DNA of 39,793 nt from Frankiaceae bacterium (GCA_030840585.1 JAVEEG010000237.1:1-39793), one strand, 5' to 3'; positions 2,373 to 11,381 are shown, counted from the first letter of the stretch. Made by a program: numbers and translations. The notes: a model not told the origin generated them from the sequence alone.

Positions 2373-3053
2373 ATGCTGTTCTCCCGCCAGAAGACCCAGA
2401 TGATCGCCGCCGAGGACGCGCTGCCCGGGCGGACCGAGCGGCCCTTCGCGGTGCCGTCGCGTCACTTTGTGCTGGGGACGCTGCTCGAGGGTGAGCCGGG
2501 GGAGACCGCGTACTTCGGGCTCGGGTGTTTCTGGGGCGCGGAGCGGCGGTTCTGGGAGACGCCGGGTGTCGTCTCGACGGCGGCCGGTTACCAAGGTGGC
2601 TTTACGCCGAACCCAACGTACGAGGAAGTCTGCTCGGCGAAGACCGGGCACGCCGAGGTCGTGAAGGTCGTCTTCGATCCGGCTCGGATTTCTTATGCCG
2701 ACTTGCTGCGCGTGTTCTGGGAATCGCACGACCCGACGCAGGGGATGAAGCAGGGGGGTGACGTCGGGACGCAGTATCGGTCGGCCATCTATGTGACGTC
2801 GGACGCGCAGAAGCAGGCGGCGCTCGAGAGCCGGGACGCCTTCCAGCCGGTGTTGGCCAGTGGTGGGTACGGCGACATCACGACCGAGATCGCGGACGCC
2901 GGCGAGTTCTACTACGCCGAGGACTACCACCAGCAGTATTTAGCTAAGGTAAGAAATGGCTACTGCGGCTTGGGAGGAACCGGGCTCTCATGCCCAGTGG
3001 GCGTGGCGAAGGCGCCGGAGGCTTCTGCCGAATTACGGCCGGACAGGGCCTAA
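2373..3053 (+). CDS. msrA: peptide-methionine (S)-S-oxide reductase MsrA
   Basis: ATG 2373 preceded by GGAGG; GCFWGAE catalytic motif, [11 protein letters not shown]-terminal tail [27 protein letters not shown]. Confidence 0.95.
2928..3053 (+). repeat. R0: msrA 3'-end repeat, resident in-frame copy (proposed proximal attachment site)
   Basis: caccagcagtatttagctaaggtaagaaatggctactgcggcttgggaggaaccgggctctcatgcccagtgggcgtggcgaaggcgccggag; matched by R1-R5, with a shorter match in R6. Confidence 0.85.
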
Positions 3054-3724
3054 AGATCGAACGCAAGCTGCGCCTGTTCTTTCAACTGGGCGTAGACGGC
3101 CCGCACTGCCCGATCGCATGGTTTCAAATCCGGGACAAAGACTTCTATTGGGGCCCAGGCGAAGACGGCGCAGACCTGGCCGGACAACCGTTCAACGGCA
3201 CCTCGGCAAAGATCACCACTCCCGAAGACTTTGAGCGCATCGCGCGAGCGGTCTGGAAAGCGTCCCACCATGCATCGGGCGTCGTGCACGTGACTGGTGG
3301 CTCTGAAAGGCAGACGCGCACCGATGTCTGGGGTTGTCCTCTGACTTCCGTCTCTAATCCGACCCGTTTCGCGGCTGTCTTTACCAAGCACCCGGTACAC
3401 ATGCCGACGTACCAGCGATCACTGACTCGGCGCCGGTCGGCGGCCATGGTGCTGAGGCTCCCGGAAGAGCGTTGGGCGGTAAGGCATTACTTGGAGTTCT
3501 TCCTGACGCCGGCTGGAACGTTCTCGGCAGTGCCGACGATGCTCCAGATGGAGCCCAAGCGCTCCGTTGAACCGCCACTCTCGCAATCATTTGGCGAAGA
3601 CGTCGACCTAGTACTGCTCGTGCGTCATTACGCCGTTGGCGGAGAGATGAGCGCTTGGAAGCCAACCGCCAGTATCTGGCTCGTCCTGGACCCGGCTAGC
3701 CCCGAAGACGGAGCGCCTAGTTAG
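2990..3724 (+). CDS. cassette 1 cargo: hypothetical protein
   Basis: ORF 244 aa, [38 protein letters not shown]..; the only upstream ATG (2990) lies inside the msrA tail, so the start is uncertain. Confidence 0.6.
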
Positions 3725-3836
3725 TCCGACTGGGCCCCGGGCCATGTTGGCTCGCGCCAAGTGCACGTACGTTCCGAGCAACTGGAAGGTCGGTGACGTG
3801 GCGATCGCGACGAGGGCCGCAACGGCTGCAGCGATC

Positions 3837-3975
3837 ACCGACGCGCTGGGGGCTAGCACCAGCAGAACTTGGCCAAGAACCCCAACTTATTGCGGGCTTG
3901 TTGGCACGGGCATGTCGTGTCCCGTCGGTGTCGCGAAGGCAACCGAGATTGCTGCCGTATAGCCGGCGTCGTTGT
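3837..3975 (+). repeat. R1: displaced msrA 3'-end repeat
   Basis: caccagcagaacttggccaagaaccccaacttattgcgggcttgttggcacgggcatgtcgtgtcccgtcggtgtcgcgaaggc..tagccggcgtcg; 2-nt deletion relative to the msrA frame; [20 protein letters not shown]. Confidence 0.9.
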
Positions 3976-4153
3976 CCCCGCGACACCCGGCCGATCCGTA
4001 ATCAGGGATACACAACTCTTAGCCGCATACGCAGCAGCGATTGAACGAATGCCTATACAGCGGCTTGCACCGAAGCACGGACGAGTGCGTGCGTGCCCAG
4101 GAGAAGAACCGGGTGTCACAGTCAGGCGCATCGCTCTGAGTTGACCGGCTGGG

Positions 4154-4456
4154 TTAGATGAGCCCGAAGACCTTGGCGATCGCTTCGTCGAGCCGAGCGA
4201 TGGCCTGAGCGGAGACAGGGCCGAGCAGGCGTCCGGCCCGCAATTCTTCTGTGGTGATCGGGAAGATTAAGTCGGTTACGACGATGCCGACGACCGGTTC
4301 GGCGTTACCCAACTCGACTGTCGTCTCAAGCAGGTCATAGGCGAAGCCCATACTGAGAACGGGCGCGGCGAGAACGCTCGGCCATTCGGCGTTACGAGTG
4401 TCCGAGGACACGATGACGACCGAGCCGGAACGCTCCGCGAACGTTCCCTCGTACAC
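4154..4456 (-). CDS. cassette 2 cargo: MazF/PemK-like toxin (start may lie about 20-30 nt upstream)
   Basis: (RRGEV)YEGTFAERSGSVVIVSSDTRNAEWPSVLAAPV..VVGIVVTDLIFPITTEELRAGRLLGPVSAQAIARLDEAIAKVFGLI, CcdB/MazF-like layout. Confidence 0.6.
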   Translation of the reverse strand: MYEGTFAERSGSVVIVSSDTRNAEWPSVLAAPVLSMGFAYDLLETTVELGNAEPVVGIVVTDLIFPITTEELRAGRLLGPVSAQAIARLDEAIAKVFGLI

Positions 4457-4485
4457 CTCGCCACGGCGGGCCAGCGCTACCCTCC

Positions 4486-4893
4486 CTAGACCGATTCGGA
4501 TGAGGCCGGGGCGCCAGCTACCAGCGCTCGCATCGCCGACCCGCCCATAGCGATTACGGACTTGTCATCGAAGGCGTTTGAGATGACGTCGCGCGTCAGG
4601 CGATACTGCTGGGCGCGCTTGGCCTGCTGGACTTGGACGAGCCCCACCAGCGCGAGTCGTCGGACGGCTTCAGAGAACGAGGAGACTTCTTCGTCCCCAA
4701 AGGCCAAGCCCAGCATTGTGCCGCTCAGACCGCCCAGGAGCGCCGAACGCAGCAACGGCGCCGCTTCGGCATCGCCAACGAGCTGCTCGATCTCTTCCAC
4801 TTCGCGCGGGCTGAAGCCGATCGTCTTGCGCTCCATTACGGCCACTGCACCTCCTAGTGCGTCGGAGATTGCATCACCTTTCGATGCGTACAT
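4486..4893 (-). CDS. cassette 2 cargo: putative antitoxin / partner upstream of MazF-like toxin
   Basis: 135 aa ORF directly upstream of and co-oriented with the toxin ORF; MERKTIGFSPREVEEIEQLVGDAEAAPLLRSALLGG.. Confidence 0.5.
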   Translation of the reverse strand: MYASKGDAISDALGGAVAVMERKTIGFSPREVEEIEQLVGDAEAAPLLRSALLGGLSGTMLGLAFGDEEVSSFSEAVRRLALVGLVQVQQAKRAQQYRLTRDVISNAFDDKSVIAMGGSAMRALVAGAPASSESV

Positions 4894-4924
4894 CGACTCA
4901 CAAACTACGGTACCTTAGGCATTC

Positions 4925-5719
4925 ATGCCGGGCAACAATCAGAGCGCTCCAGCTTCGAAATGGGCCAAAGCGGCCCAGGTCGTGCTGTTCCTGGCGGCCT
5001 TGGCGCTGCTGGGTCTGCACACCGACCAGAGTGATCTGACTGATCGCGGCATTAAGGTCCAGATCGACTCGACCAGCCTCGCGCTACTGGCCCTGATGGC
5101 CGTCGCGATCTTGCTTCCCCGTCTGAGGAGCATCAAGGCAGGCACGGTTGAGGCCGCCTTCGACGCCGCCGCCCGCGCGGGAGAGAGCGCGGCGGCCGCG
5201 GCCCAACCTGACGACCTCACCGGCCTTGCTGCCGCGACCGCGCCTGCCGCAGCCGCCGGGACCCCCGCCGAAAGCCAGTCGGTCGCTGGCGCGCTGACCG
5301 CCGCAATCGAGAACCCACTCGTCTCGATCGAAGCGTCGCGACGAGCGCTCGCTGCCGACCTGCGTGAGCTGGCGGCTGCGGTGAAGCTGGACCAGCCCCC
5401 CACGGAAATGGCCGAGCTGGGCAAACAACTGAAGGAACAAGGCGCGCTGCCGGACAAAGCAGCGGCGGCCATCACTGACCTCGTCAATGCGATTCGGCAA
5501 GCGAAGCTGGCCCAGGGACCGCTGCCCCCAGGTGTCGCGGTGGAGGTCGACACCGCAACTCAGATACTCCGCAGTGTTATTCGGAGGGCGATTACGGAGG
5601 CCACCACGCCAGCGAGCGTCCCGGCAATCGAGACCGCGCCGGCAACGCAGGCCGGGGCAACCGAGACCGCGCCGACTGCGGGGGCGCCGGCTGCCGCGGA
5701 AGGCCCCGATGCGTGCTAG
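4925..5719 (+). CDS. cassette 2 cargo: small membrane protein with long Ala-rich helical tail
   Basis: 264 aa, two N-terminal hydrophobic segments (VVLFLAALALLGL; LALLALMAVAILL); stop codon TAG falls in the first bases of R2. Confidence 0.65.
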   Translation: MPGNNQSAPASKWAKAAQVVLFLAALALLGLHTDQSDLTDRGIKVQIDSTSLALLALMAVAILLPRLRSIKAGTVEAAFDAAARAGESAAAAAQPDDLTGLAAATAPAAAAGTPAESQSVAGALTAAIENPLVSIEASRRALAADLRELAAAVKLDQPPTEMAELGKQLKEQGALPDKAAAAITDLVNAIRQAKLAQGPLPPGVAVEVDTATQILRSVIRRAITEATTPASVPAIETAPATQAGATETAPTAGAPAAAEGPDAC

Positions 5720-5835
5720 CAGTAGCTTGCTCGCAATCCATCCTTCTAGGTATTGCGGACTCGGTGGGGCCGGGCACTTCCTTCCTGGTCGGGTGGCGAA
5801 AGCGCCGGAACCCACTGCCGAGCGACCGGCGTTGC
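5714..5835 (+). repeat. R2: displaced msrA 3'-end repeat (degenerate)
   Basis: tgctagcagtagcttgctcgcaatccatccttctaggtattgcggactcggtggggccgggcacttccttcctggtcgggtggcgaaagcgccggaa..gaccggcgtt. Confidence 0.85.
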
Positions 5836-5953
5836 ACCGCGCTCAAGCACGGCCGGTGCGCCAGCTAACCGTCGCGCCGTTGCGCGACAACCGGTTGACC
5901 TCCATAACAGCAGAGGGGAGTGCTGGGACACCGCTCCGTGGTAGACGAATGTC

Positions 5954-6157
5954 ATGACGAACTTCACGGTGTTCACCCATGATGAGTCCGAGTATCCGTG
6001 CAGCGGAAACTCGAGATACAAAGTGCTGGACAGCGGCGCGCGTCAGCTGGACCGCGACGCTGCCGACAGCTTCGCTCCACGCATCGTGTTCAGCCCGAGC
6101 CACTGGCTGCGCGTTGAGGATCGTGAGCTGCCTCGGGGCGGCGGCTTGATCGCGTAG
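5954..6157 (+). CDS. cassette 3 cargo: short hypothetical ORF
   Basis: ATG-initiated 67 aa ORF MTNFTVFTHDESEYPCSGNSRYKVLDSG..; length alone is weak support. Confidence 0.3.
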   Translation: MTNFTVFTHDESEYPCSGNSRYKVLDSGARQLDRDAADSFAPRIVFSPSHWLRVEDRELPRGGGLIA

Positions 6158-6278
6158 CGCGTCAATTGCGCAACACTGAGTGACGTTCGCGATCGGCCCG
6201 GACGCCGATGCGCGCCATGGCCCGTCCTAGCGGAGCGCAGTCGCTGCCTGCTTTCGCGGGTCCGGCAGCATTTTGCGC

Positions 6279-6863
6279 ATGCCTCTGAAACTGCTCACAG
6301 AGCCCTTACTGGGCGCGGCTGCTCAAACCTCCGGCGGTAGCCCGCACGACGATGCCATCCTCATTGCGGTCATTGCAGCCGTTAGCGCCCTAGCCGGTGT
6401 CGTCCTCAGCACTGCGGGTGGATTCGTAGGCGCATGGTTGCAGCGCCGATCAGACCGGTTGCGCGATCGACAGTCGCGGCAGCATGAGTACGCAATGTCG
6501 CTCCGGAGTGATTTACGACAAGTGCTGGCACGGGTCCTCGTGTCAATGAATGACGTCTGGATCTGGTGCATTGATCAGCACAAGAGCGGCACGGCGCCTT
6601 CGCATGATCTTGTGGCGGGACATCTTCGGGATCTCAGCACCGCGCTACGTGAAGCGCGTCTGCTTGTCGAGGATGACGATGCGCTGGAGCACACAAGCAA
6701 GGCTGTCGATGACGATCTGATGGCCCTTTGGCAAGTGATGGCAGCACAGGGCGCCGCCTCACCAGCGCTCGTCCGGAGGCTCATCGACGACTTCGTCGAC
6801 GAGCGCGCGCGGGCAGAGGCAGAGATGCGTGCGCTACTGCGCCCGGTGGCAAACTCCGGTTGA
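6279..6863 (+). CDS. cassette 3 cargo: membrane-anchored hypothetical protein
   Basis: DDAILIAVIAAVSALAGVVLSTAGGFVGAWLQRRSDRLRDRQSRQHEYAMSLRSDLRQVLARVL.. N-terminal TM then helical cytoplasmic region. Confidence 0.65.
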   Translation: MPLKLLTEPLLGAAAQTSGGSPHDDAILIAVIAAVSALAGVVLSTAGGFVGAWLQRRSDRLRDRQSRQHEYAMSLRSDLRQVLARVLVSMNDVWIWCIDQHKSGTAPSHDLVAGHLRDLSTALREARLLVEDDDALEHTSKAVDDDLMALWQVMAAQGAASPALVRRLIDDFVDERARAEAEMRALLRPVANSG

Positions 6864-6950
6864 AGCCTACGGTCGACCGCGTTCGAGCCGAGGTTATGAC
6901 GGAACGCCAGCGCTGTTACCTGCTGCTTGCCATCGCGTTTTCTATGCCGT

Positions 6951-7055
6951 CGGCTGACACCAGCAGTACCTTGCTCGCAATCCTTCTTGGTACCGGGGGC
7001 TCGGTGGAAGACGGGCCTGTCTTGCCCAGTCGGAGTCGCGAAGACGAACGGCTAG
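6951..7055 (+). repeat. R3: displaced msrA 3'-end repeat (degenerate)
   Basis: gctgacaccagcagtaccttgctcgcaatccttcttggtaccgggggctcggtggaagacgggcctgtcttgcccagtcggagtcgcgaagacgaacgg. Confidence 0.85.
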
Positions 7056-7231
7056 AACGCATCCTCCACCCGATTCTTTGACATACCTCGGAATTACCGC
7101 GCGCTCTACTGGCATGTGCGAAACAGCCCGCTCCTGGACCACAGGCGGGCACCGCCCTTGCCACGGTGGATGGATCGAGGCCTATTCCAAGTTGTCGGGC
7201 CCAGTCGCCGTCCTTTCAGGGCACTCCCTCG

Positions 7232-7729
7232 CTAACGCTCCAGATCACTTCGCTCGCTATGGAAGAGGCGCTTCACTGCAGCATCTAGGTCGCTCAGCAT
7301 GTCCCTGACTTGGACCAATGTCGGTGTCGGCGTCCCGAAGTTCCGCCGGGGGCCGTTTATCCATGCGTCCACATAATCAAGATCGAACCAGGTATCCCCC
7401 GCGGCATCGCTGACCTGGGCGGAACCGAGTAATTGGATGACGTCGAGCTCCTTCCTCACCTCGCCCACGCCGCTATGCAGCTCACGCCGGAGTCGCACGT
7501 CTCCTGGTGTGTCGAGGGCCTGCTCAGCGAGTGCCCAGACCGTACGGGCCGTAGAAAGATACTCGCTGTAGGCCGCCTGCCGCCCCTGGTAAATGCGGTC
7601 AGCGCGCTGCTGGTCGGCCTCTTGTCCAAGAGTCATTCGAGTGGTCGCGACGGATGCGCCGACGCCGATCACAACGCCTGCAAGGGCGAACACTCCAGAG
7701 ATGATCACGGTGCGTACGTCGGACTTCAT
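7232..7729 (-). CDS. cassette 4 cargo: membrane-anchored hypothetical protein
   Basis: MKSDVRTVIISGVFALAGVVIGVGASVATTRMTLGQEADQQRADRIYQGRQAAYSEYLSTARTVWALAEQAL..; same topology as 6279-6863 protein. Confidence 0.65.
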   Translation of the reverse strand: MKSDVRTVIISGVFALAGVVIGVGASVATTRMTLGQEADQQRADRIYQGRQAAYSEYLSTARTVWALAEQALDTPGDVRLRRELHSGVGEVRKELDVIQLLGSAQVSDAAGDTWFDLDYVDAWINGPRRNFGTPTPTLVQVRDMLSDLDAAVKRLFHSERSDLER

Positions 7730-7921
7730 TCGCTAAGTCTCCTGCGCCGTTCCACCACGACGCCAGCAATGACGTTCGCCGTTGCGCGTGCGAGTGCGTT
7801 GCGAGAACCCACGGCCGGTTAGCCGGCGGGTGGTCGCTCGGCCAGCTGCCCCAGGATTCAGTCGCGTTGGCACCACGCCCGGTCACCGCTCTCGCCTGGC
7901 CTAGCCCACTCCGGCGACGCG

Positions 7922-7993
7922 CTAGTCGAGTCCTTCTTTGAAGGTGGCGCGGTCGCGATAGATGAGTCCGACCTCGTAAGTGCCGTTGTTCGA
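7922..7993 (-). pseudogene. orphan C-terminal coding fragment abutting R4
   Basis: Reverse strand reads ..[26 protein letters not shown] with no plausible full-length ORF; frame enters the repeat. Confidence 0.35.
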
Positions 7994-8126
7994 CGCCGGA
8001 CGCTGGCACCAGCAGTACCTCGCGAAGAACCCGAACGGCTACTGCGGGTTGGGCGGAACCGGGATGTCGTGTCCGGTTGGCGTGGCCAAGACGTCGGAGA
8101 CGTCCGCCCAAATAGACGGCGTTAGT
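7991..8126 (+). repeat. R4: displaced msrA 3'-end repeat (best preserved)
   Basis: cgacgccggacgctggcaccagcagtacctcgcgaagaacccgaacggctactgcgggttgggcggaaccgggatgtcgtgtccggttggcgtggccaagacgtcggag..tagacggcgttag; in frame [31 protein letters not shown]. Confidence 0.95.
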
Positions 8127-8231
8127 TCGCCTCGTTGAACGACCTGCTCACGATGCGTCATAGGGGTTACCGTGCGAACGTGGCGCCCGTGAAAGGCGCT
8201 GCGACTGCCTGACCGGCAAGGGGGTGCGGTC

Positions 8232-9035
8232 ATGACGCCAGGAGCGAGGCTCGCTTTCGCGTCAGTTGGACTGGCGACGATCATCACCGCGTGCGGGGGG
8301 TCCGGGAGCGGCGGCTCGGCTGCTCCGCAGCCATCTCTCAGCTCGTCAGCCAGGGCGGTGACCGTAGTTGCCCTCGGTGATTCCGATGCCACCGGAATCG
8401 GGGACTCGTCCGGACGCGGCTGGGTGGGTCGATACGGGGCTTTGCTGCACGACAAGCTCGCTTCGCCTGTCACCGTGAACAATGAGGCGGTCGAAGGAAA
8501 GACGAGCGATCAGCTGAGGAGCGAGCTTTCGAACGACGCCTCTCTGCGGCAATCAATCGCGACGGCGAAGGTGATTCTGATCGGCATAGGCGGAGCGGAT
8601 CTGAACGCCGGCGACGATGCCCTGGCGGCGAGCCGCTGCAAGGGACGTGCGTGCTACACCAAGGTTCTTCACGCCTTCGCGACCAACATCAATGCGATCG
8701 CAGCCGAGGTCCATCACCTCGCACCAGGCGCGCTGCTGCGCGCCATGAGCCTGCCGAACGCTTATCCGGGTGCGGGGAGCGCGATACCCGCGTTCATCAC
8801 CGCCGACGTCAGTCGGTACGAGGTCGTCGCCGTACGCGCCGCCGTCTGCAACGCGATGCGCTCAAACGGTGGGCGATGCGTCGATGTCGTAACTGCCTTC
8901 AACGGGAAGAGTGCCGACTCCGATGCGTATGCGAGCGGGCTCATGACCAAGGACCCGTGCTGTTACCCCAGCGCCAAGGGTCAGGAAGCAATCGCGCGGT
9001 TGCTTATAGCCAGCGGGGTGCCCGCGGCCCAATAG
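8232..9035 (+). CDS. cassette 5 cargo: SGNH/GDSL-hydrolase-like lipoprotein
   Basis: Lipobox-like LATIITACGG; VVALGDSDATGIGDSSGRGWVGRYGALL (GDS block I), IGIGGADLN (block III-like), CCYPSAKGQEAIA (C-terminal block). Confidence 0.75.
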   Translation: MTPGARLAFASVGLATIITACGGSGSGGSAAPQPSLSSSARAVTVVALGDSDATGIGDSSGRGWVGRYGALLHDKLASPVTVNNEAVEGKTSDQLRSELSNDASLRQSIATAKVILIGIGGADLNAGDDALAASRCKGRACYTKVLHAFATNINAIAAEVHHLAPGALLRAMSLPNAYPGAGSAIPAFITADVSRYEVVAVRAAVCNAMRSNGGRCVDVVTAFNGKSADSDAYASGLMTKDPCCYPSAKGQEAIARLLIASGVPAAQ

Positions 9036-9069
9036 GTGCCGTTATCGCGGCCTTGGCGACGCTCGAGTT

Positions 9070-9204
9070 CGACGCCGCACGCTGACACCAGCAATACCTT
9101 GCTAAGAACCCCAACGGCTACTGCGGGGCTCGGCGGGACGGGGATGTCGTGCCCCGTTGGTGTGGCGAAGACGCCGGAGGCGCACGTCGAATAGCCGGCG
9201 TTAC
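9070..9204 (+). repeat. R5: displaced msrA 3'-end repeat
   Basis: cgacgccgcacgctgacaccagcaataccttgctaagaaccccaacggctactgcggggctcggcgggacggggatgtcgtgccccgttggtgtggcgaagacgccggaggcgcacgtcgaatagccggcgtta; 1-nt insertion breaks the msrA frame. Confidence 0.95.
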
Positions 9205-9382
9205 ATGACGCGCGCACCGCGGCTAATAGGTGGCCGTTCGGTCCACGGCGACGAACCAGGAAGGCAAGTGCCGCAGGCGGCGGCGCGTCGGGCTGGCCCG
9301 TTTCGGCTACGACGAGAACCACCCGGTGACTAAGCCGCTTGGCGGCTCCTGACGGGCTTCGCGGCGATCGACTTCTGTGGGT

Positions 9383-9562
9383 ATGAGTGAAGGACTGACA
9401 AGAGACGAGGACACCGCCCTGCGGTGCCTGGCCGCGCTCTCCGATGTTAGGGAGCTCAGCGAGGAGCATGAAGCGCTCCTCAACGAGTTGGCCCTGCGTG
9501 ACCGACGCTCGGTCATCCGCAAGGACGGCACCCAGATTCCGGCGCAGCGGCCCGCGTCCTAG
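9383..9562 (+). CDS. cassette 6 cargo: small hypothetical protein
   Basis: ATG-initiated 59 aa MSEGLTRDEDTALRCLAALSDVRELSEEHEALLNELALRDRRSVIRKDGTQIPAQRPAS. Confidence 0.4.
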   Translation: MSEGLTRDEDTALRCLAALSDVRELSEEHEALLNELALRDRRSVIRKDGTQIPAQRPAS

Positions 9563-9580
9563 CCCGGCTCGCCGAACTTC

Positions 9581-9641
9581 CGACGAGTGCCCGGTCGGGG
9601 TAGCTGAGGCCGTGGACGACGCTACGGCCGAGGCCGAATAG
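9581..9641 (+). repeat. R6: terminal msrA 3'-end remnant
   Basis: tgcccggtcggggtagctgaggccgtggacgacgctacggccgaggccgaatagccgac = CPVGVAEAVDDATAEAE*; short match, stop codon retained. Confidence 0.6.
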
Positions 9642-9646
9642 CCGAC

Positions 9647-9688
9647 TGTCAGACGGTGACGTCGCTAGAGCAACGCCACCGTCTGACA
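9647..9688. terminator. bidirectional hairpin terminator after R6, convergent with S53 peptidase
   Basis: tgtcagacggtg - 18 nt loop - caccgtctgaca, perfect 12-bp stem. Confidence 0.7.
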
Positions 9689-9698
9689 AGTCTTGGTG

Positions 9699-11381
9699 CT
9701 AGTTGGTCGGTGCGGTCTTGCCAGCCAGCGCGATCGCCAGGCCGCTCACCCGCGGCACGCCCCACCCGGTCGGGTAGTCGTAGCCCGGCGTCGCCGGGTA
9801 GAGACCGTTGGCGCCGATGATGATGTCGGTGAATGAGCTCGCGTACTTCGTTGCGTTGGCGTTGTTGTTCCAGATCAGCGGGGCGGCGAAGCCGAGGTTC
9901 GCGATCCCGTCGGTGCCGTTCGGGCCCGCTGCGTTGACGCGCGCCCACATGCCCTGCCACAGCGGAGCCGACAGGCTGGTGCCGCCGACGGTCGTGTTCG
10001 AGCCCGCGTTCACGATGTTGTAGCCGGACAGCAGGTCACCGGACTGCGCTGACACGTCGGCGACCGCGCGTCCCGGGACCGACAGCGGTGAGCTCTGCTC
10101 CCACAACGGCGCCTCGAAGAAGTACGACGGGCCGCCGCCGCCGTGCGTCCACGCGATCTCCTGGTCACGCCGCGTCGGCGTACCGGTGGTGTAGAGCACG
10201 GTGCCGCCGACCGCGACGGAGCTGGGCGAAGTGGCCGGGTATTCCTGCGACGGGATCGGGCCGATCGTGATGCCGTTAGTGCCGATGAGGGCGGAGCAGC
10301 CCGAGCCGTTGTCGCCGGTCGACGCGAAGAACGAGCGACCCTCACTGGCGGCCTGGGCCAGCGCCGCCTCGTGCGCGTCGAACGTACCGATGAAGCCGAA
10401 CACGTCGCACAGGCCGTACGAGCCGGATGCCTGCTTGGCGCCGGCCGGATCGTCGGCCCAGCTCTTGATGGCGGCAGCCAGCAGGTCGGAGTTGCCCGAC
10501 TCGGCGAAGTAGAAGGTCATCCCGGCTGCGTCCGGCGCCATGCCGGAGGCCGCCTGGCTGTCGAGGTCCCACTCGATGAGACCGCTGGTGTCCGTACCGT
10601 GCGTGCCGACCTGCGTCACCGTGAACGGCATTGTGGGCAATCCGTTCGCGGTCTCGAACTTCCGCAGGTCGGTCGTGACGCTGCTAGGGGCGCCCCAGCC
10701 GAATGCGGCCAGCTTCTCACCGTGGCCGCGGTTGTTCGACGGCTGCTCGTAGACCGACCACAGGTCCGCCGGCGACGTCGATGCGGGGATTGGGAACGAC
10801 TTCGGGGTGGCGACGTGGGTGTGCGCCCGCGTCGACAGCGTGTCGAGGCCGGCGACCGCAGTCACCGCGGCGGGCACCGTCGGCGCGGTGGTGTTCGCGG
10901 CGAAGTGGGTCGTGCCGGTGACGTAGTTGCGCAGCGTGACCTTGAACGTGCGCTCGACCTGAGCCGCGGTGCCCTCCGCCAGCAGGTAGGTGCCGGCCCG
11001 GTCGGCGAACGTGATGTGCAGTCCGCGACTCGTGAGCCAGGAACGCACCGCCGACGTCGCCGCCGGGTCCGCGCCGAACTGCGCGGCGTACTGCTGCGGG
11101 GTCAGGAAGCGGTGGAAGTTCGGGCTGCTCTTGTCGTACTGCGAGGCGATCAGCTGCTGGAGCCCGGCCGCATTGCGACCGGCGATCGAGACGCCGACGT
11201 GCCAGTGCGCGCTCGGGCTCGGCGCGCCGACCGAATGGGCCAGCAGCTTCGACGGCAGCAGGTCGCGGCTGAGGACCTTGCTGGCCATCGTGGATGCGCC
11301 GGCTTGGGTAAGCACGGGGAGCGACGCGGCGAGGCACATCGCGGCGCCGACGGCGATGACGGTCCGGGGACGAACTGGCAC
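9699..11381 (-). CDS. secreted S53 (sedolisin/kumamolisin-like) peptidase with pro-domain
   Basis: Signal-like N-terminus; pro-kumamolisin region SPNFHRFLTPQQYAAQFG; EWDLDSQ and GGTSLSAPLWQG motifs. Confidence 0.92.
   Translation of the reverse strand: MPVRPRTVIAVGAAMCLAASLPVLTQAGASTMASKVLSRDLLPSKLLAHSVGAPSPSAHWHVGVSIAGRNAAGLQQLIASQYDKSSPNFHRFLTPQQYAAQFGADPAATSAVRSWLTSRGLHITFADRAGTYLLAEGTAAQVERTFKVTLRNYVTGTTHFAANTTAPTVPAAVTAVAGLDTLSTRAHTHVATPKSFPIPASTSPADLWSVYEQPSNNRGHGEKLAAFGWGAPSSVTTDLRKFETANGLPTMPFTVTQVGTHGTDTSGLIEWDLDSQAASGMAPDAAGMTFYFAESGNSDLLAAAIKSWADDPAGAKQASGSYGLCDVFGFIGTFDAHEAALAQAASEGRSFFASTGDNGSGCSALIGTNGITIGPIPSQEYPATSPSSVAVGGTVLYTTGTPTRRDQEIAWTHGGGGPSYFFEAPLWEQSSPLSVPGRAVADVSAQSGDLLSGYNIVNAGSNTTVGGTSLSAPLWQGMWARVNAAGPNGTDGIANLGFAAPLIWNNNANATKYASSFTDIIIGANGLYPATPGYDYPTGWGVPRVSGLAIALAGKTAPTN

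Follow-up and report, generated by a model that had tools for sequence, protein, structure and literature searches.

The 3' end of msrA in a Frankiaceae bacterium very probably serves as the attachment site of a site-specific array, assembled by a large serine recombinase through the serial insertion of small elements. The array was analysed in a stretch of 39,793 nucleotides (the window), in which six units of 0.5-1.9 kb each lie between successive cores of the repeated site (Table 1). The original prediction, made from this sequence alone, had proposed that small elements entered the 3' end of msrA in succession, so that the gene was put back in frame each time and earlier ends were displaced downstream; the comparative data described here support that proposal.

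Direct-orientation copies of the 3'-terminal 110-130 nt of msrA begin at 3857, 5715, 6958, 8007 and 9086 (R1 to R5), and a weak copy (R6) lies at 9588; R0, starting at 2928, is the end of the resident gene itself. The predicted positions of R0 to R5 proved correct on re-examination, which likewise found no second msrA body between the copies. The repeats were scored with a profile of msrA ends from the window's genus, from which R1, R2, R3 and R6 were excluded. R0 to R5 scored 23-115 bits, against a top score of 4.2 bits in 100 dinucleotide shuffles of positions 3061-9690, and are unambiguously genuine copies, including R2, which is weaker yet well above chance. The last of the seven predicted repeats, R6, is marginal (E = 0.42 over the whole window), its assignment being backed by an in-frame reading of CPVGVAEA...AEAE-stop and by a strong hairpin directly behind it. 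This hairpin is possibly the original msrA terminator; it has no T run. The borders predicted for the element site fared unequally: the left junction (CACCAGCA) holds and coincides with the crossover point, whereas the right border (TAGCCGGCGTT) consists of the msrA stop codon with its 3' flank and is hence not a crossover, because the ordinary msrA of an array-free relative (L043) is trailed by the identical string (CAATAGCCGGCGTT). This right border, in the form GCCGGCGTT, was ruled out as part of the recombination site.

Table 1. Coordinates of the msrA array in the window and of serine recombinase genes at related arrays
Feature	Position	Strand	Evidence or remark
msrA, anchor gene	2373..3053	+	PMSR Pfam match, E 2.9e-61
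Cassette 1 (core to core): R0 end, ORF ~3041-3724 without known family, distal arm, next core at 3857	2928..3856	+	R0, 112 bits
Element arm left of R1 core, ending GGGGGCTAG	3838..3856	+	
Cassette 2: R1 end, toxin, partner, 264-aa ORF	3857..5714	+	R1, 82 bits
MazF/PemK-type toxin, cassette 2	4154-4456	-	PemK_toxin, E 3.1e-6
Likely toxin partner, cassette 2	4486-4893	-	
264-aa ORF, cassette 2	4925-5719	+	
Cassette 3: degenerate R2 end, ORFs 5954-6157 and 6273-6863 (both +)	5715..6957	+	R2, 23 bits
Element arm left of R3 core, TTCTATGCCGTCGGCTGA	6939..6957	+	non-msrA
Cassette 4: R3 end, 165-aa ORF 7232-7729 (-)	6958..8006	+	R3, 50 bits
Element arm left of R4 core, TTCGACGCCGGACGCTGG	7988..8006	+	common to the arms of R5, G001 (L037) and G002 (L038)
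Cassette 5: R4 end, GDSL-type lipase/esterase	8007..9085	+	R4, 115 bits
GDSL-type lipase/esterase, cassette 5	8232-9035	+	Lipase_GDSL_2, E 2.1e-12
Element arm left of R5 core, TTCGACGCCGCACGCTGA	9067..9085	+	
Cassette 6: R5 end, 61-aa ORF 9377-9562 (+)	9086..9587	+	R5, 111 bits
R6: 3' half of msrA end, possibly what is left of the original chromosomal end	9588..9646	+	5.2 bits, reading frame
Strong hairpin past R6	9645..9691	+	region 9635-9700: MFE -33.1, z -6.2
Pro-kumamolisin-type (S53-like) secreted peptidase, right flank, outside the array	9699..11381	-	Pro-kuma_activ, E 1.5e-25
Microbispora serine recombinase	L035:5827-7341		
Second-lineage recombinase	L207:14414-15835		oriented with msrA forward
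Second-lineage recombinase	L193:10426-11847		oriented with msrA forward
Second-lineage recombinase	L182:3996-5417		oriented with msrA forward

Arrays of the same kind occur in soil actinobacteria outside the window, and profile matches are thus not confined to this locus, as a purely local repeat would require. A tblastn-type search with MsrA as query located additional ends adjoining msrA in two congeners (G001 and G002), in a further genome of the window's family (G006) and in Microbispora amethystogenes (G027, L056), the last with eight of them spread over 26 kb past msrA. At least two matches to the msrA end are present in 33 of the 121 genomes of Microbispora's family, and tandem copies are found in the window's own genus and family. 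A class-wide sample yielded a match in 314 of 395 genomes, with at least three copies, among the genomes listed, only in the window's family and that of Microbispora; one member of the genus Microbispora (G398) has nine matches in this sample. The array of G178 sits in a genome assembled as a single contig of 7.37 Mb, and draft assembly therefore does not explain the pattern. A search of viral contigs with the window-type and Microbispora-type arms found none.

Comparison between genomes sets the boundaries of the unit. In units shared between arrays, identity begins at CACCAGCA on the proximal side, runs through the msrA end and its stop codon into the cargo, continues at up to 97-100% until CACCAGCARTAC at the distal border, and drops thereafter. 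These borders define a unit comprising core, msrA 3' end, cargo and a conserved non-msrA arm that precedes the next core, and the crossover maps to CACCAGCA, within the msrA reading frame. The consensus of the arm over 60 distal sites is CGCGAATTATTGCCTGAAGCGAACCGCTAC ahead of CACCAGCAGTACC (the arm profile was built from 46 sites), and 35 msrA genes carry ordinary coding sequence at this position. The left arm of R4 and R5 in the window, also non-msrA, reads TTCGACGCCG-CG-TG(A/G) as far as CACCAGCA. Arms of this type precede msrA ends in congeners G001 and G002 as well; in these genomes the genes upstream of msrA are retained and the downstream cargo differs from that of the window.

Whole cassettes recur and change order. 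Twelve pairs of units are alike over at least 80% of both members and occupy different array positions. ParDE- and DUF6247-type cassettes follow one order in G155 and G159 and the reverse in G097 and G154, in the same orientation and with their ends just ahead of an att site. The region is not the single fixed block that would have argued against the original prediction; individual units come and go and change places from one genome to the next, and the breakpoints fall at the core. The msrA end of a shared cassette is often less well conserved than the unit body, which suggests some gene conversion among the ends. The small units are free of recombinase genes and measure 0.7-4 kb, and many of those tested carry toxin-antitoxin parts, including PIN toxins, Phd/ParE, Gp49/HTH (HigBA-like), YoeB/YefM, and HEPN with a nucleotidyltransferase-like partner. 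No homologue of the window's cassettes or cargo was found in other arrays, no model in NCBIfam or PADLOC matched the window cargo, and the ORF of cassette 1 has no homologue among 39 relatives. A conserved hairpin, GGCCCTTGGTCGCC...GATCAAGGGCC, directly follows the msrA stop codon in many cassettes (L188, L194, L207 and L035), where it is perhaps a terminator that insulates the cargo.

Large serine recombinases are found at the junctions of these arrays. In a first lineage, all six close homologues (in G027, G171, G142, G177, G119 and Herbidospora) begin no more than tens of bases from the arm, and none of 11 homologues at about 55-65% identity adjoins an msrA end. In a second, distant lineage (G117, G140 and G156) the arm is a different one, GATCGCAGCTC..GCGCATGGGTCACATAGATACACGCTCG, and the crossover point lies further 3', at GGCACCGG; this long conserved arm is also present in recombinase-less copies (L180 at 16729 and L186 at 16194). 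A third lineage, 33-36% identical to the first, abuts the msrA end in G006, within the window's family. Resolvase (PF00239) and Recombinase (PF07508) domains were identified by Pfam in all four junction recombinases tested, which come from outside the window's genome. In L035, L195 and L196, recombinase-less units flanked by att sites stand in tandem with a recombinase-bearing unit. A search with four query enzymes detected no tyrosine recombinase in the array loci; the window's genome has four tyrosine recombinases elsewhere and none in the window. The draft of that genome (388 contigs, about 93% complete) yielded no convincing serine recombinase, with no match to PF00239 and two weak matches to PF07508, so that the enzyme behind this array is inferred from relatives, and the array in the window's own genus is presumably the work of the same enzyme class.

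Several further recombinase loci were noted. Sister recombinases in L153-L157, about 60-65% identical, abut an aldo/keto reductase-like frame (MNPLC..GVGLIPWSPLARGLLAR, read by eye) at a site that has no gene-restoring end, and they provide a natural contrast to the msrA-targeting clade. In G030, msrA (73496-74131, minus strand) is immediately followed by a recombinase remnant (C8:73242-73418); this genome belongs to another family and no array was seen there. In the first module of G090 (L185, 7541-10251), a truncated serine recombinase gene lies beside a second one, apparently as a result of the insertion of one integrative element into the recombinase gene of another.

If insertion replaces the end of msrA each time, the gene should be chimaeric, and breaks of this kind are present. 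Between two Microbispora genomes (G027 and G178), identity is 96.9% in the msrA body, 68.2% in the end past the core and 55% in the sequence that follows. In the window, third-position G+C falls from 0.88 in the msrA body to 0.57 over the 14 codons that follow the core, with the break at 2928. Both breaks are what replacement of the end at each insertion predicts, and the unusual codons of the resident end are explained if R0, that is, msrA from 2928 on, was brought in by cassette 1. The polarity of the arrays is likewise consistent with insertion at msrA, newest first. By BLAST, the sequence that directly follows msrA in the array-free Planobispora longispora (L109) and Actinomadura livida (L066), the native flank, is found past the last att site in four arrays (L059, L192, L204 and L211), and recombinase-bearing units are msrA-proximal in all seven arrays with msrA on the same contig. 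In L191 and L195 the native flank lies behind an att site other than the last, which indicates that other rearrangements occur too. A search for the window's own empty site through the right-flank peptidase did not locate it; the closest homologue (G008, 73%) is not beside an msrA end.

These observations suggest the following model. The chromosomal attachment site (B-B') would be the 3' end of msrA, and the site of the circular element would combine, as its left half (P), the conserved arm of about 25 nt with, as its right half, a functional msrA 3' end of about 110 nt that includes the stop codon. A large serine recombinase would exchange strands at the core inside CACCAGCA, probably at the central CC, as judged from a dyad found in Microbispora sites, AAGGT-N14-ACCTT. 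In this way msrA would exchange its last 35-40 codons for the version carried by the insert, and the old end, now behind a P arm, would be shifted downstream. As msrA again consists of a body and an intact end, the site would stay receptive and the next insert would land in front, such that the array grows with its newest unit adjacent to msrA. Recombinase-bearing units, those of Microbispora and Herbidospora with the replication initiator RepSA and that of Microbispora also with a GntR-type regulator, are the likely autonomous members, and their RepSA relates them to actinomycete integrative elements. Recombinase-free units of 0.7-4 kb with the same arm would most likely have been moved in trans, and some may be decayed elements. 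We thus infer three steps, namely the action of the enzyme at the msrA site, mobilization in trans and re-use of the repaired site.

One alternative concerns the origin of the small units. Full integrative elements could have inserted serially and then lost their recombinase and transfer genes, leaving the small units as immobile remnants, an accretion of the type known for CIMEs. This process is established at other sites (PMC5704250), and both the proximal position of the recombinase units in the seven arrays and the recombinase-gene remnants inside two arrays (L186 and L194) are in keeping with it. Independent decay, however, would not yield an identical unit of 0.7-1 kb, whereas whole recombinase-less units recur from core to core across genomes and genera in changing order, and each small unit is a cassette of one or two genes, not an eroded island. 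Accretion with decay is accordingly the less probable account, although it may explain part of the cargo-only units. On the strength of their reordering and wide sharing, we favour the movement of cargo-only units as single cassettes. We lean, with some reserve, toward a serine-recombinase counterpart of the integron, in which a single chromosomal site takes up, releases and reshuffles recombinase-less single-gene or toxin-antitoxin cassettes in trans, and stays receptive through the working msrA ends they carry.

The remaining alternatives dispense with site-specific insertion or invoke another enzyme. The repeated 110-nt ends are potential substrates for homologous recombination, and some of them look converted, but an array made by such exchange or conversion alone is very unlikely, since identity starts and stops at the same core rather than anywhere within the end, the non-msrA arm is conserved across genera, and recombinase genes abut the core. 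A true integron, with an IntI tyrosine integrase and attC hairpins, that came to lie at msrA by chance would account for the cassette sizes, the toxin-antitoxin cargo and the reordering; given that serine and not tyrosine recombinases occupy the junctions, and that the crossover falls within an msrA coding segment and not at an attC GTT, we regard it as highly improbable. Tandem duplication of msrA followed by internal deletions has in its favour the direct orientation of copies adjoining the gene, and it retains practically no probability, as the original prediction had also held: to the left of each core lies the conserved non-msrA arm, the cargo is unrelated between units, and no remnants of an msrA body are found. 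We therefore retain site-specific serial insertion at msrA.

Among known systems, staphylococcal and enterococcal cassette chromosomes (SCC and ECC) rely on large serine recombinases, CcrAB, to enter rlmH at its 3' end and build up composite tandem islands in which some members lack a recombinase (pseudo-SCC) (PMC6222049, PMC6243372). In common with them, the msrA arrays involve element-borne large serine recombinases, a conserved target gene that is entered at its 3' end and restored, direct-repeat att sites of tens of bp, and tandem composites with recombinase-less members. They differ in their anchor (msrA, not rlmH) and phylum (actinobacteria), in having a single recombinase beside the att arm and RepSA on autonomous units, in carrying about 110 nt of the anchor gene on each unit, and in their units of down to 0.7-1 kb, which form arrays of up to eight and are shuffled between genera. 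Tandem accretion of CIMEs, IMEs and ICEs, with decayed or recombinase-less members between att sites, has been reviewed, as has the disruption of dispensable genes by serine-recombinase IMEs (PMC5704250). Serial site-specific integration and recombinase-less att-flanked units in tandem with a recombinase unit are common to both; at msrA, in contrast, the gene end is restored and the recurring members are one-gene cassettes.

The arrays resemble integrons in their fixed proximal insertion point with the newest unit first, their small toxin-antitoxin-rich cassettes and their reshuffled order. They are distinguished from them by a serine rather than a tyrosine recombinase, by an att core within a protein-coding gene and by the absence of IntI beside the arrays, so that the earlier term integron-like is apt for the behaviour and not for membership. 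pSAM2 uses a tyrosine integrase and a tRNA gene site. The recombinase units of Microbispora and Herbidospora, and these only, resemble pSAM2-like actinomycete integrative elements with RepSA (AICEs) in carrying RepSA and an integrase together, and differ in using a serine recombinase at msrA. Full-text searches of an open-access library turned up no article that describes msrA as the target of a serine recombinase, and none combining methionine sulfoxide reductase, serine integrase and attB or attachment site; msrA is absent from the main text of a large recombinase survey (PMC10083194).

The model accounts for msrA genes that are repeatedly chimaeric. If it is correct, integron-like capture of cassettes arose in actinobacteria with a different recombinase chemistry, and repeated swapping of its end can keep a housekeeping gene in use for docking over long periods. 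The arrays are a source of small cargo genes, both toxin-antitoxin pairs and unknown families, and the cores and their cognate serine recombinases constitute testable pairs that may be useful as integration tools.
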